Below are positions 26,554 through 32,901 of a stretch of DNA of 64,000 nucleotides, piece after piece. The notes under the pieces are model-generated. The model ran no database searches and was not told the DNA's origin. It worked only from the letters and a program-made list of their open reading frames with translations. How positions within the stretch are numbered: position 1 is the first letter of the stretch; every line of letters begins with the position of its first letter. Both the position numbers and the translations under genes were made by a program. The stretch comes from Desulfovibrio aminophilus DSM 12254 (GTDB taxonomy: Bacteria; Desulfobacterota; Desulfovibrionia; Desulfovibrionales; Desulfovibrionaceae). The DNA is taken from contig NZ_AUMA01000006.1 in NCBI RefSeq assembly GCF_000422565.1, forward strand, positions 1 to 64,000. Direction: 5' to 3'.

Positions 26554-26595
26554 ATGGCGCGTTCGCCATCGAAGGTATTCTCGAGAAGATATAAT
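26554..26595 (+). promoter_or_regulatory. Promoter of the H-NOX chemosensory operon with inverted repeat
   Basis: A consensus -10 (TATAAT) lies at 26590-26595. There is no good -35; instead a perfect inverted repeat, ATGGCG-CGTT-CGCCAT (26554-26569), sits just upstream of the -35 position. A perfect -10 with no -35 and a nearby palindrome is the usual look of an activator-dependent promoter. No sigma-54 or sigma-28 element was found. The predicted start (~26602) excludes a longer reading frame that begins at 26554. Confidence 0.5.
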
Positions 26596-26667
26596 TGCCA
26601 GTTGGTCGCGCTTCTGGGAGATGTTGACATGAACCTCCGGTTCGCCGGAGCGAGGAGGGGACGCACT

Positions 26668-28755
26668 ATGCGCGGATCTGTCGTGGTCTGGCTGGCCGGA
26701 GTGGCGATCATCGTCATCATTTCGGCGGCGTCTTTGGGCCAGGACTGGAAATTCCTGCTGGTCGCCGACGTCATCGCCCTGGGGGTGCTGGCCTGGGCCG
26801 CCGCCATGACGGCCCGTCTGCCCGGGGCGATCCGGTCCGCATTCTCCGCCTTCCGTGACGCGAAGGATCCCGAGGCCCTGAACGCCGTTTCTGGTGAGGC
26901 AGGGGAACTGCTGGCCCCATTGCGTGAGGGGGTCGCCGCGCTGAGCAAGGACGCCGTGTTTTTCGGCGGAGCCATCCGGGCCGCCAACAACCCCCTGCTG
27001 GTCTGCGATCGCCAGGGCAAGATCGTTTTCGCCACCAAGCCGCTGCTGGAAATTTTGCGCAAACCCGCGAACCAGGTTCTGGGCCTTTCGGTGAGCCAGG
27101 CGTTCTACAACCGCGAGGGCTCCTCGATTACCGAGAAGGTCATGGAATCCGGCCAACCCCTGGACAAGGACGCTGAGCTGGCCCTCTACGACGGCCGCAC
27201 GGTGCCGGTACGCCTCGCCTCCAACGTCATCGTCGACGGCATGGGCAAGGTCATCGGCGCGTTCAGTTCGTTCATCGACCTCTCTCAGCGCGTGGCCGAT
27301 CTGCGGCGGCTCGAGGAGCAGCGAGCCCAGGTGGCCCGGATCGGCAAGGAGGTTTCCACCTTGGCCGAGCGCGTGGCCTCGGCCTCGGAGGAACTTTCCG
27401 CCTCGGCTGACGAACAGGCCCGGGGAGCCCAAAAACAGAAGTCCCAGACCGATTCCGTGGCCACGGCCATGGAGGAGATGACGGCCACGGTCCTGGAGGT
27501 GGCTCAGAATGCGGCGGCCACGTCCCAGGCGGCTGACGAGGCCCGAACCTCGGCCCACCAGGGCGTGGACATGGTCGGTCAGGCCGTGCGCGGCATCAAC
27601 AACGTCTCCGAGTCCGCGGGCAAGCTTTCGGAGGTGCTGGCCCAGTTGGACGCGCAGGCCGCCGAGATCGGCCGCATCATCAACGTGATCAATGACATCG
27701 CGGACCAGACCAACCTCCTGGCGCTCAACGCCGCCATCGAGGCCGCCCGCGCGGGTGAGGCCGGACGGGGCTTCGCCGTGGTGGCCGACGAGGTGCGCAA
27801 GCTGGCCGAGAAAACCATGACCGCCACCAAGGAGGTCGAGGAGGCCATCGGCACCATCCAGCAGCGTTCCCGCCACGCCACTGAATCCATGGACGAGACC
27901 GCGCGGCAGGTGCATGCCAGCACGGATCTTTCGAACAAGGCGGGCGAGGCGCTTCAGACCATCATGCAGCGCATCGAGGACATGGTCATGCGGGTGTCCC
28001 AGATCGCCGCGGCCGCCGAAGAGCAGTCCTCGGCCGCCGAGGAGATCAACCGGAACATCGAGGAGATCGCCCAGGTGGCCAGCGAGGCCGACGAGGGCGC
28101 GTCGCAGGCGGCCGTGGCCACCCGCGACCTGGCCGAACTGGCCCAGGAACTGCTTACGGTTGCTTCGCACTTCACCGGCGGAGGGCAGGAGGCGGGCAAG
28201 CTGCGCCAGTCCGAGGGCGAAATGAAAGGCGTGCTGCCGAAACTGACCCAGGATTACGTGCGCGAGGCGTATGGCCAGGAGGTTTTCGAGGCCATGCAGG
28301 AGAGCATGGGCGGCCCCGTGTTCCTGCCTACGGCCAGCTATCCCGATCAGGTGCTGCATCAGATGGCCGAGTTCGTGTCCGGCCGCAAGGGATCTTCGGC
28401 GCGCGACTTCTTCCTCGGCATGGGACGCTTCACCATCAAGCAGTTCTACAAGATGTACAAACGCTACTTCAAGGATGAGAACCTCAAGACGTTCTATCTG
28501 CGCATGAACGACCTGCACGCCCAGCTGACCAAGGACCAGCCGGGCATCAAACCGCCCAAGTTCAGCTACGAGGACAAGGGCAAGACCCTGTTCATGAACT
28601 ATCGTTCCAAGCGCGGGCTGTTTGACTACTTCGAGGGTATTCTCCAGGGAGCGGCGGAATTCAAGGGCGAGCGGGTCAAGATCAAGATCATTCCCCTGGA
28701 TGAAGAGACCGCCCGTGCCGAGATCACCTTTCTGGACGCCGGAGCCGGGAAGTAG
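26668..28755 (+). CDS. Methyl-accepting chemotaxis protein with PAS and C-terminal H-NOX haem domain
   Basis: A 695-residue receptor. Residues ~4-22 and ~29-48 form a membrane hairpin with almost no periplasmic loop. A PAS domain follows (~100-200: [20 protein letters not shown]). The MCP signalling helices span ~210-500 with the conserved tip near 333-365 ([20 protein letters not shown]). Residues ~519-695 are an H-NOX domain: [10 protein letters not shown] start, proximal haem His617 in NDLHAQLTK, the Y-x-S-x-R motif at Tyr645/Ser647/Arg649, and Tyr654 where oxygen-binding H-NOX proteins carry a distal Tyr. The sensor is therefore cytoplasmic and C-terminal, replacing the CheR pentapeptide tail. 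The start at 26668 has GAGGAGGGG seven bases upstream. cheA follows after 26 bases. Confidence 0.9.
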
Positions 28756-28781: not shown

Positions 28782-30917
28782 ATGTCGGATGATCTGAACA
28801 GGCAGGTGTTTCGCGAGGAGGCGTACGACCTCCTGGGCGAGCTGGAGACAACCCTGCTGGAGCTGGAGCAGACGCCCGGCGACCTGGACGTCATCAATCG
28901 GGTGTTCCGGGCCTTGCACACCATCAAGGGCTCGGGCTCCATGTTCGGGTTCGAGGACATCGCCGCCTTCACCCATGAAGTGGAGACGGTTTTCGATCAG
29001 GTGCGCAATGAGGAGTTGGCCGTAACCACGGAACTCCTCAACCTCGTCTTTCGTGCCCGCGACTACATCCAGAAGATGCTCGACGCCGACGGCGCGACCG
29101 TGGCCCCGGAGGTTCGCCAAGAGATCCTGGAAGGACTGGTCCGGGTGTCCGCCGCGGCGGCAGAACCGGCTGCCGTTGTCGAGGCCGCGCCTGGGGCCGA
29201 AGCCGGAGGACCGGCCGAAGCGGAAGTCGCGCCGGAGGAATGCGGATACGCCGTGCGTATCCGTTTCCGCGACAGCCGCCCACCGGCGGGATTCAGCCTG
29301 GAGCCGCTCCTGGAGGAATTGGGCAAGCTCGGCTCCTGCGGCGTGTCCCCGGAAAAGGTGCTCGATCCGGAAAAATCCGGGCCTGTCTGGAACGTGACCT
29401 TGCGCACCACGGCCTCGGAAGAAAATATCCGCGACGTGTTTTTCTTTTCCGAGTTCGACTTGGACGTTGAGGTCCGCCGCCAGGACGACGCGGCCCAGGC
29501 CGCGCCGCCGGTCGAGCAGCTGGAGGAGGCCAAAGCCCGCCCGGACAAGAAGCTCGGCGAAATCCTCGTGGAGGAGGGTGCCATCGATCCCAGCGACTTG
29601 GCCGAGGCCTTGGCCCAGCAGAAGCCGCTCGGGCAGATTCTTGTGGAGTCCGGCAAGGTGGACAAGGACCGCGTCGAGCAGGCCGCCGCCAAGCAGGCCC
29701 AGGCTCGGCGCGAGGTCGGGGAGAAGCGGGGCGAGGAGGCGGGCAAGGGGCACCCGGAGTCCGTGTCCTCCATCCGTGTGGCCGCCGAGAAGCTGGACAA
29801 CCTCGTGGATCTGGTGGGGGAGCTGGTCATCGTTCAGGCTCAGATTTCCCAGGTTGTGGGTGAGCGCTCCGATCCCGTGCTCACGGCCCTTTCCGAAGAG
29901 TTGGAACGGCTTTCCGACGCCCTGCGCGACAGCACCCTCGGCATCCGCATGCTGCCCATCGGGACCACCTTCAGCCGCTATCGCCGCCTCGTGCGCGATC
30001 TTTCGGCCGACTTCGGCAAGGATATCGCATTGGTCACCCAGGGGGCCGAAACCGAACTGGACAAGACCGTCATCGAGCGTCTGGGCGATCCGCTCATGCA
30101 TTTGCTGCGCAACAGCATCGACCACGGCATCGAACCTCCTGAGGAACGCCAAGCCGCGGGCAAGCCGTCCCAGGGCACCATCCTCCTGGCCGCCGAGCAT
30201 TCCGGCGGCGAGGTGCTCATCCGCATCAGCGACGACGGCCGGGGTATGGACTCCGAGGCCATCAGGGCCAAGGCCGTTGAGCGCGGCCTGATCCAGCCCG
30301 AGGCGGAGTTATCGGAGAAGGAACTGTTCAAGCTCATTTTTGAGCCAGGTTTTTCCACCGCCAAGAAGCTCACCAGCGTCTCGGGCCGAGGCGTGGGCAT
30401 GGACGTGGTCAAGCGCTCCATCGACGCCCTGCGGGGCAGCGTGGAGATCAGAAGCCGCAAGGGTCAGGGCTCGGAGATCATCATCCGCCTGCCGCTGACC
30501 CTGGCGATCATCGATGGGCTCCAGGTGCGCGTGGGCGACGCCTTCTTCGTCATTCCCCTGTCCCTGGTGGAGGAATGTGTGGAACTGGCGCACCAGGATG
30601 TGGAGGAGGCCGGGAACCAGCGCATCCTTTACCTTCGCGGTGAGATCGTGCCCTACATTCATCTGCGCGAATGGTTCGAGGTGGACGGAGCGCCTCCGGC
30701 CATCGAGCAGATCGTCATCACACGGGTGGAGGGCAGCCGCATGGGCATCGTGGTCGACAGCGTCATCGGGGAGCACCAGACCGTGATCAAGACCCTCGGC
30801 CGCGTCTACAAGGACGTGGAGGGGATTTCCGGCGCCACAATCAAGGGTGATGGGAGCATCGCCCTGATCATCGACGTGCCTCGTCTGGTTCGTGGTGTGG
30901 TGGTGGCCTCCCAATAG
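28782..30917 (+). CDS. cheA: Chemotaxis histidine kinase CheA
   Basis: A 711-residue kinase. P1: the HPt domain with His46 in FRALHTIKGSGSMFGF. A P2-like domain spans ~150-240. Residues ~256-305 hold two copies of a KLGEILVEEG / PLGQILVESG motif resembling the N-terminal module of GspE/PulE ATPases, an unusual insert. P3 is the dimerisation helix pair; P4 has the N box (HLLRNSIDHGIE), G1 (ISDDGRGMD), F box (FEPGFSTAKK) and G2 (SGRGVGMDVV), all intact. P5 is the CheW-like C-terminus. It phosphorylates response regulators under control of the receptor encoded just upstream. GGGAGG precedes the ATG. Confidence 0.95.
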   Translation: MSDDLNRQVFREEAYDLLGELETTLLELEQTPGDLDVINRVFRALHTIKGSGSMFGFEDIAAFTHEVETVFDQVRNEELAVTTELLNLVFRARDYIQKMLDADGATVAPEVRQEILEGLVRVSAAAAEPAAVVEAAPGAEAGGPAEAEVAPEECGYAVRIRFRDSRPPAGFSLEPLLEELGKLGSCGVSPEKVLDPEKSGPVWNVTLRTTASEENIRDVFFFSEFDLDVEVRRQDDAAQAAPPVEQLEEAKARPDKKLGEILVEEGAIDPSDLAEALAQQKPLGQILVESGKVDKDRVEQAAAKQAQARREVGEKRGEEAGKGHPESVSSIRVAAEKLDNLVDLVGELVIVQAQISQVVGERSDPVLTALSEELERLSDALRDSTLGIRMLPIGTTFSRYRRLVRDLSADFGKDIALVTQGAETELDKTVIERLGDPLMHLLRNSIDHGIEPPEERQAAGKPSQGTILLAAEHSGGEVLIRISDDGRGMDSEAIRAKAVERGLIQPEAELSEKELFKLIFEPGFSTAKKLTSVSGRGVGMDVVKRSIDALRGSVEIRSRKGQGSEIIIRLPLTLAIIDGLQVRVGDAFFVIPLSLVEECVELAHQDVEEAGNQRILYLRGEIVPYIHLREWFEVDGAPPAIEQIVITRVEGSRMGIVVDSVIGEHQTVIKTLGRVYKDVEGISGATIKGDGSIALIIDVPRLVRGVVVASQ

Positions 30918-30930
30918 CCGGAGGCGGGAG

Positions 30931-31812
30931 ATGGGAATCAAGGACGACGATGGCGATGCGCGGCGGCGAGCGGTGGAGGCGTGTTCCACCACGCCCAAGA
31001 TGAGCGAGGCGGACTTCCGACGTTTCAGCCAGTTCATCACCGCCGAACTGGGCATCAAGCTGCCGCCGGCCAAGAAGACCATGCTGGAGGCCCGGCTGCA
31101 GAAACGCCTGCGGGCCCTGGGCCTGGGTTCCCACCGGGAATACTGCGAATTCCTGTTCAGTCCCCAGGGAATGGAACAGGAGCTGGCCCAACTCATCGAC
31201 GTGGTGACCACCAACACCACGCATTTCTTTCGTGAGCCCCGGCACTTCGAGATCCTTGCCGCGAAGGTGATTCCGGACATCCTGCGGCGCAAGGGGCGCG
31301 GCCGGGTGGCGGTCTGGAGCGCGGGCTGCTCCACGGGCGAGGAGCCGTACACCCTGGCCATGGTGCTTTCGGAATGCGCCGAGATCAACCCGGAGCTGAG
31401 CTTCTCCATCCTGGCCACGGACATCTCCACCCAAGTCCTGACCCTGGCCAAGCGGGCCGTGTACGCCGAGGACCGCATCGAGGGCATCCCCGAGGCCCTC
31501 AAGCGGAAGTATCTGCTGCGCAGCAAGGACCGCTCCCGTCGGCTGGTGCGCATGGGGCCGGAATTGCGCTCCAAAGTCAATTTCCAGCGCCTGAACTTCA
31601 TGCGCGAGTTCGACTTCCGGGAGGATCTGGACATCATCTTCTGCCGCAACGTGGTCATTTATTTCGATCGGGGCACACAGGAAGAGCTGTTCAAGCGTTT
31701 CTGCGGCAAGCTGATCCCCGGAGGATACTTGTTCATCGGCCATTCCGAGAGTCTCACCGGCATGGACCTTCCCCTGGTCCAGGTGGCCCCCACCGTATAC
31801 CGCAGAACCTGA
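30931..31812 (+). CDS. cheR: Chemotaxis protein methyltransferase CheR
   Basis: A 293-residue enzyme that methylates receptor glutamates with SAM. The N-terminal helical domain (FRRFSQFITAELGIKLPPAK) is followed by TTNTTHFFREPRHFE and SAM motif I, VWSAGCSTGEEPYTLAM, then the ATDISTQVL and CRNVVIYFD segments. GGAGGCGGGAG precedes the ATG at 30931. It lies 13 bases after cheA and 15 before cheB, one operon. The receptor here lacks a C-terminal tether peptide, so CheR must dock without one or act on other receptors. Confidence 0.95.
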   Translation: MGIKDDDGDARRRAVEACSTTPKMSEADFRRFSQFITAELGIKLPPAKKTMLEARLQKRLRALGLGSHREYCEFLFSPQGMEQELAQLIDVVTTNTTHFFREPRHFEILAAKVIPDILRRKGRGRVAVWSAGCSTGEEPYTLAMVLSECAEINPELSFSILATDISTQVLTLAKRAVYAEDRIEGIPEALKRKYLLRSKDRSRRLVRMGPELRSKVNFQRLNFMREFDFREDLDIIFCRNVVIYFDRGTQEELFKRFCGKLIPGGYLFIGHSESLTGMDLPLVQVAPTVYRRT

Positions 31813-31827
31813 CGACCGGAGGCGCGC

Positions 31828-32901
31828 ATGCGAAAACCCATCCGTGTGCTCATCATCGACGACTCGGCGGTGGTCCGCCAGACCCTGGCCCAACTTCTGG
31901 CATCGGACCCCGACATCGAGGTCATGGCGGCGGTGGTGGACCCGCTGGTGGCCGTGGAGAAGATCAAGAGCGAGGTGCCGGACGTCATCACCCTGGACAT
32001 CGAGATGCCGCGCATGGACGGAATCACCTTCCTGCGCAAGCTCATGAGCCAGCATCCCATTCCCGTGGTCGTCTGCTCCTCCCTGGTGGAGCCGGGCGAC
32101 GAAACCACCCTGCGGGCCCTGGAATACGGCGCCGTGGAGATCGTGACCAAGCCCAAGGTGGGCACCAAGAAATTCCTGGAGGAGTCGGCGATCCGCATCT
32201 GCGACGCGGTGAAGGCCGCTGCCCAGGCCCGGATCAAGCCCTTCCGCGGTGGCCGGGACATGGAAGTCGCGCCCAAACTCTCGGCCGACGCGGTCCTGGC
32301 CGCGGGCAAGCCGCAAGCCCTGCGGACCACGGAAAAGATCGCCCTGGTGGGGGCCTCCACGGGCGGCACGGAGGCCCTGCGGGTGTTCCTGGAGGCCATG
32401 CCCCTGGACTGTCCGCCCCTGGCCATCGTCCAGCACATGCCCGAGCATTTCACCCAGGCCTTCGCCAACCGTCTGAACGCCGGCTGCCGGATCTCCGTGC
32501 GGGAGGCCCGGGACGGAGACTCCATGTTGCGCGGCCAAGCGCTCATCGCCCCCGGCAACAAGCACATGCTGCTCAAGCGCAGCGGCGCCCGCTACTACGT
32601 GGAGGTCAAGGACGGGCCCCTGGTCTCGCGTCACCGGCCCTCGGTGGACGTGCTTTTCCGCTCCGGGGCCAACTACGCGGGCAAGAACGTGGTGGCGGCG
32701 ATCATGACCGGCATGGGCGACGACGGGGCCCGGGGGATGCGTGAACTGTTCGACGCCGGAGCCTTCACCATCGCCCAGGACGAGGCCAGCTGCGTGGTAT
32801 TCGGCATGCCCCAGGAGGCCATCAAGCATGGCGGGGTGCAGAAGATCCTGTCCCTGGAGGCCATCGCCGGGGAGATGGTCCGGCGCTGCAACTCAGGCTA
32901 G
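31828..32901 (+). CDS. cheB: Chemotaxis methylesterase/glutamine deamidase CheB
   Basis: A 357-residue two-domain protein. Residues ~1-125 are the receiver with phospho-acceptor Asp57 in [12 protein letters not shown] and Lys in VTKPK. The C-terminal esterase has Ser177 in VGASTGG, His203 in QHMPEHF and an Asp in [10 protein letters not shown] (298/299). All residues are intact. CheA phosphorylates it to balance CheR. It ends the chemosensory operon; its TAG stop overlaps the stop of the convergent DUF190 gene through a CTAG palindrome. Confidence 0.96.

Follow-up and report, generated by a model that had tools for sequence, protein, structure and literature searches.

The 64,000-nucleotide stretch of the Desulfovibrio aminophilus DSM 12254 genome analysed here (contig NZ_AUMA01000006.1, positions 1 to 64,000 of the forward strand; the window) carries a forward-strand gene at 26668..28755 that open reading frames, Pfam and AlphaFold2 together resolve as a PAS-MCP-H-NOX receptor of 695 aa. 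The enclosing open frame (26554-28755, forward strand) gives 733 aa when counted from its first ATG. We prefer the ATG at 26668 as the start because a ribosome-binding-site-like GAGGAGGGG, read directly at 26652..26660 on the same strand, closely precedes it, and residue numbers throughout are those of the 695-aa protein beginning there. The forward-strand features run in order through a two-helix membrane anchor (residues ~3-65, 26674..26862), a PAS domain (residues 108-207, 26989..27288; Pfam PAS_9, E 1.4e-7), an MCP signalling hairpin (27376..28077) with methylation-type motifs, a linker (residues 503-518, 28174..28221) and an H-NOX (HNOB) domain that is predicted to bind haem (residues 519-688, 28222..28731; His617, YxSxR at 645-649, distal Tyr654). 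The initial annotation had described MCP signalling helices followed by an H-NOX domain, and Pfam places both in one frame: the MCPsignal core at 286-470 (E 9.5e-50) and HNOB at 520-673 (E 1.6e-35; 122.9 bits against a cut-off of 25.5, scored on the 695-aa protein), the latter inside the 519-695 region to which the domain had been assigned. The H-NOX start at M519, H617 and Y645-S647-R649 also lie exactly where they had been read. Five matches, some of them overlapping, to what we take to be the methylation motif pattern fall at residues 237, 245, 265, 447 and 448 and are predicted methylation sites.

The receptor gene heads an MCP-CheA-CheR-CheB cluster on the forward strand. Beginning 26 bp past its end is a CheA kinase gene (28782..30917) with Hpt, dimerisation, ATPase and CheW domains by Pfam; the frame of a CheR methyltransferase (30892..31812, taken from the first possible start; Pfam CheR, E 1.8e-62) overlaps CheA, and a CheB methylesterase with a receiver domain (31828..32901; Pfam CheB_methylest, E 2.2e-63) follows. 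No CheY was found in the subset of window ORFs that was scanned. On the upstream side, a weak terminator-like stem separates the EF-G gene from the receptor, one such stem being found where 1.7 are expected by chance; a separate receptor transcript is possible. The CheA linker (window positions 29541-29771) contains a repeated segment of LGEILVEEG / LGQILVESG type, with a sub-threshold match to DUF4388.

The full-length AlphaFold2 model, a monomer built with 28 relatives, has a membrane hairpin of two helices (3-23 and 27-65), PAS strands and helices at 110-204, two long MCP helices (206-361 and 363-502) that meet at residue 362, and an H-NOX region at 518-688. Its mean pLDDT is 79.3, falling below 50 in the linker at 504-510, and its pTM is only 0.33, so the relative placement of the domains is not fixed by the model. 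Modelled alone, the H-NOX domain reaches a pLDDT of 93.6, and its best solved-structure matches in Foldseek are 6cww, 1u55 and 1u4h, the O2-binding Caldanaerobacter H-NOX (top matches: E 8.7e-14, TM-score by query length 0.85-0.88). AlphaFold2 and Pfam also sustain the earlier description of a membrane hairpin that has no periplasmic sensor and is combined with PAS and H-NOX. Paired hydrophobic stretches occupy the anchor position in most relatives scanned, and the PAS_9 match recurs in 25 of 29 aligned proteins.

Because both MCPsignal and HNOB were matched in all 29 aligned full-length proteins (the receptor and its 28 relatives), their association is not a chance one. The H-NOX domain stands after MCPsignal (519-688 versus 286-470), so this is not the clostridial N-terminal arrangement; the sensor follows the signalling domain, as in chemoreceptors with a C-terminal ligand-binding domain. 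From the tip residue E358 to the H-NOX methionine there are 161 residues in 24 of the 29 proteins and 159-160 in the remaining five. Within the linker, S515 is conserved in 29, L512 in 28, G517 in 25, R513 in 24 and K511 in 21, the other positions being variable, and the M519 that follows is invariant (29/29). That invariance led us to consider an internal start at M519 that would produce a free H-NOX, a candidate we rejected: the Shine-Dalgarno signal before the H-NOX methionine does not rise above that of synonymously recoded sequences (duplex energies average -3.98, and -4.03 in the null) among 43 of 47 chosen coding sequences (L003, L036, L039 and L042 left out), some of the 43 being the same gene from two collections.

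The initial annotation had held that the H-NOX replaces a CheR-tether tail, and this did not survive comparison with the other MCPs of the genome. Just one of 21 has a pentapeptide-like tail (EFERF, in L098 on contig 24), and most (16 of the 21) end 151-156 residues past the tip motif, so that the H-NOX looks added behind a normal MCP end, following an ordinary hairpin terminus and a short linker. The other five of the 21 are the H-NOX receptor itself, one protein with a hemerythrin extension, one with a Cache-type extension, and two with tails of 186 and 190 residues. Since MCP hairpins are antiparallel, the second arm of the hairpin ends on the membrane side, beside the PAS domain and the methylation helices.

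The H-NOX might be a passenger on this hairpin, with sensing done by the PAS domain or at the membrane and no signalling role for the C-terminal domain. Two natural fused receptors (L128 and L129) could be read in that way, their H-NOX being degenerate and yet the MCP tip retained in frame, as could the low confidence with which the linker is predicted; however, the tip-to-H-NOX length is nearly fixed, and the H-NOX is better conserved than the PAS domain (mean majority 0.69 versus 0.54; 34 of 170 versus 1 of 100 columns invariant). We therefore regard a passenger domain as very improbable.

Aligned to the Caldanaerobacter domain, the receptor keeps His617, Y645-S647-R649 and P630, and places Tyr654 at the position of Tyr140. 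His617 and Y645-S647-R649 are invariant in the 29 aligned proteins, and of 61 distinct H-NOX sequences fused at the C-terminus, 60 have the proximal His, 61 have YxSxR and 59 have the distal Tyr; three more distinct pieces, truncated before the MCP tip, also carry the distal Tyr. The exceptions are the degenerate copies L128 and L129, in both of which the distal Tyr is replaced by Phe and the stretch past the proximal position departs from the usual sequence, and in L129 the proximal His is replaced by Tyr as well. In the Caldanaerobacter pocket, Trp9 and Asn74 are the hydrogen-bond partners of Tyr140, and equivalents of these two residues occur in none of the 61 fused sequences, so that O2 may be bound with a different affinity, or weakly. 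None of seven stand-alone H-NOX proteins had the distal Tyr; six of them come from other families in the phylum sample, and the seventh from within the family. It is important to note that the residue is not strictly tied to MCP fusion, since L133, from family f109, has an H-NOX frame of stand-alone length that carries it; the sister sequence of L133, L123, ends before the site.

H-NOX domains of obligate anaerobes that have a distal Tyr bind O2, which this residue stabilises, and occur as fusions with MCP domains (PMC9814294, PMC8738867). By this comparison the distal Tyr of the D. aminophilus receptor favours O2 sensing over NO-only sensing. The initial annotation had envisaged gas taxis, or an output triggered by NO or O2, in an anaerobe; a gas-sensing role stays plausible, and the distal Tyr now narrows it in the direction of O2. 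The same receptor could instead respond to NO, or to NO together with O2, as a stress signal, with NO the physiological ligand. The Caldanaerobacter domain does bind NO and CO besides O2 (PMC9814294), and all 61 fused copies lack the Trp9 and Asn74 of the O2 pocket; both points suit an NO receptor. Nevertheless, the near-universal distal Tyr of the fused copies contrasts with its absence from all seven stand-alone homologues outside f109, and partial scans of the genes adjoining the receptor showed none related to NO; we consider NO an unlikely physiological ligand. At five other loci, ten neighbouring proteins were examined, and no O2 or NO enzyme was among them.

A further reading is that the domain acts through haem oxidation or haem occupancy and not through O2 binding. 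This reading has a precedent in Vibrio cholerae, whose H-NOX, according to one proposal, senses redox state without haem by way of cysteines (PMC7108781), but residues 519-695 of the D. aminophilus protein translate without a single cysteine, and His, YxSxR and Tyr are retained together in nearly all copies. On this evidence a redox or haem sensor seems very improbable.

The C-terminal H-NOX order is common in this lineage and is not an oddity of one genome. In the taxonomic survey of this domain order, which the initial annotation had raised, all 3 genomes of the genus carried HNOB, as did 97 of the 247 sampled for the family Desulfovibrionaceae, 98 of the 297 sampled for the order (nine from two other families, seven from f111 and two from f109) and 12 of the 395 sampled for the phylum. 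Named relatives belong to Desulfovibrio, Pseudodesulfovibrio, Solidesulfovibrio and further genera. The 98 HNOB places of the family sample comprise 91 frames of at least 632 aa, six of 332-422 aa and one of 222 aa; of the six, the two inspected (L008 and L021) turned out to be one at the edge of a contig and one with a broken frame. By contrast, the six HNOB matches of the phylum sample that fall outside the family are separate frames of 186-246 aa, too short to be fusions; like the receptor's domain they have the HNOB profile, the proximal His and YxSxR, but they are unfused and lack the distal Tyr. In all 61 distinct sequences with the MCP tip in frame, including those from four of the seven f111 genomes (L111, L112, L130 and L131), the H-NOX is C-terminal and lies ~160 residues past the tip.

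The contrast that the initial annotation had drawn with N-terminal H-NOX receptors is borne out by Acetoanaerobium noterae (L122), in which, by eye, the H-NOX (profile match 1.3e-21) comes first, followed by two hydrophobic stretches and then the MCP part. On a midpoint-rooted tree, two N-terminal copies split from the C-terminal copies at 100/100; as the N-terminal side has just those two rows, one branch is very long and the root was placed at the midpoint, this split does not prove two fusions. A possible pre-fusion intermediate in f109 was also considered, L133 having a separate H-NOX frame after an MCP piece. We draw no conclusion from it, because completeness of this genome is 43%, the MCP piece has a disrupted frame and, on the tree, the H-NOX sits amid the fused copies. 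In L133 and L134, both from fragmentary f109 genomes, a frame that looks hemerythrin-like by eye follows the H-NOX, so that two O2-type binders adjoin; a peroxiredoxin-like frame lies upstream of the H-NOX in L134 and at a greater distance in L133. None of the 44 viral-contig stretches that matched our search pattern was a relative. One record labelled Planctomycetaceae (L042) is a 4.7-kb MAG contig with a Pseudodesulfovibrio-like EF-G, receptor, CheA order, and its label is probably a binning error. Genome G232 has a second fused copy (L125) whose N-terminus is longer and different, with what appears by eye to be a larger region past the first hydrophobic helix, unlike the short hairpin.

Among 36 named loci, CheA lies within ~170 bp in ten (L034-L043) and ~2.6-3.2 kb downstream in four (L049, L050, L052 and L053; in L049 another MCP-like gene sits between receptor and CheA), and no CheA homologue was found in the stretches examined for the other 22, several of which are short; the adjacent CheA is thus not an obligatory partner. 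The CheA dimerisation domain is matched three times in the D. aminophilus genome; the third match is weak, and a separate scan of its frame scored below the cut-off. Contig 6 has a second, fuller cluster, in which a CheA with two matched Hpt stretches accompanies frames that we read by eye as CheY, CheW, ParA, CheR and CheB, with CheW also matched by profile. This cluster resembles the D. vulgaris cheA3 operon, which has a parA homologue and is needed for motility in soft agar where cheA1 and cheA2 are not (PMC3944678). The partner kinase could be the neighbouring CheA, that of the fuller contig 6 cluster, or both.

Taken together, the architecture, the ligand residues, the nearly fixed spacing and the gene cluster make it probable, in our judgement, that this protein is a membrane-anchored chemoreceptor for O2 whose C-terminal H-NOX acts on the end of the hairpin, and so on CheA. 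From the conserved ligand residues and the fold, we infer that the domain would bind haem through His617; by analogy with the Caldanaerobacter domain, the ferrous haem would bind O2, held by Tyr654, and probably NO and CO too. The antiparallel MCP fold would seat the H-NOX at the membrane-proximal end of the bundle, beside the PAS domain and the methylation helices, from where a ligand-driven shift could pull on or release the hairpin end through the short, partly conserved linker. We further infer the direction of the signal, its kinase and its output: CheA activity would change, most simply that of the CheA encoded 26 bp downstream, CheR and CheB would provide adaptation, and the PAS domain may be a second input at the same end of the hairpin. 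In an anaerobe the likely output would be to avoid O2 gradients or to take up a position within them. COX1 was also looked for in the D. aminophilus genome and not found, a result that we do not enlist as evidence.

A broader proposal is possible but rather doubtful: that two lineages have attached H-NOX to opposite ends of the hairpin, the Clostridia in front of it and the Desulfovibrio group after it, and that in the latter PAS and H-NOX share that end and jointly gate one kinase, making a two-input O2/redox coincidence receptor beside its own CheA. Here the H-NOX could work from either end, because both ends of the hairpin meet at the membrane side.

Several known receptors bear on the O2 chemoreceptor that we favour. 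The clostridial MCP-H-NOX proteins (Tar4 of Caldanaerobacter/Thermoanaerobacter tengcongensis, and the Acetoanaerobium protein) likewise join a distal-Tyr H-NOX to an MCP part and membrane helices, but their H-NOX is N-terminal, ahead of the membrane helices (by eye in Acetoanaerobium, and reportedly in Tar4), whereas that of the Desulfovibrio-group receptor is C-terminal. The D. aminophilus receptor differs from them further in having a PAS domain after the membrane hairpin and in lacking Trp9 and Asn74. DcrH of Desulfovibrio vulgaris, a characterised case, is similarly a membrane MCP whose C-terminal domain is cytoplasmic and binds O2; O2 avoidance has been proposed for it, and reviews treat the route of the signal from its hemerythrin to the MCP part as an open question (PMC9388753, PMC13401364). 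The DcrH sensor is a hemerythrin with a non-haem di-iron site, and the protein also contains HAMP and a periplasmic domain, where the D. aminophilus receptor has H-NOX and PAS. TlpD of Helicobacter pylori shares the order of PAS, MCP hairpin and C-terminal sensor, and in its crystal structure the C-terminal CZB straddles the central coiled coil (PMC12871147, a preprint); it differs in being cytosolic, with a CZB zinc sensor and without canonical methylation sites, while the D. aminophilus receptor is membrane-anchored and has an H-NOX with predicted haem and methylation-type motifs.

Chemoreceptors with C-terminal sensors make up a subfamily that is poorly characterised and uses at least 17 domain types (PMC7390727). 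MCPs of this type are therefore already known, and the form that combines H-NOX with PAS is an apparently unstudied variant: in the H-NOX/HNOB literature, covered at the level of the titles and abstract beginnings listed and with most subscription papers outside that scope, we found no experimental paper on it. Early domain-survey work, of which Iyer 2003 is said to be the founding survey, reportedly already lists a Desulfovibrio H-NOX. What the conserved H-NOX version would offer to the question of how a sensor behind the hairpin signals is a haem spectrum that reads out ligand state directly, with natural comparison variants in L128 (no Tyr), L129 (neither Tyr nor His) and the N-terminal counterpart. 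It also suggests that these anaerobes own a direct haem O2 receptor besides those of the DcrA and DcrH types.

Two further MCPs of the D. aminophilus genome have C-terminal extensions of other kinds. A DcrH-like protein on contig 8 (L120:2389-4092, reverse strand) has MCPsignal at 207-390 and Hemerythrin at 447-562. The other, on contig 4 (L121:3106-4836, reverse strand), ends in a Cache/PDC-like stretch in which MCP-like_PDC_1 scores over the cut-off and dCache_1 under it; Cache domains are normally extracytoplasmic, and this one would be cytoplasmic.
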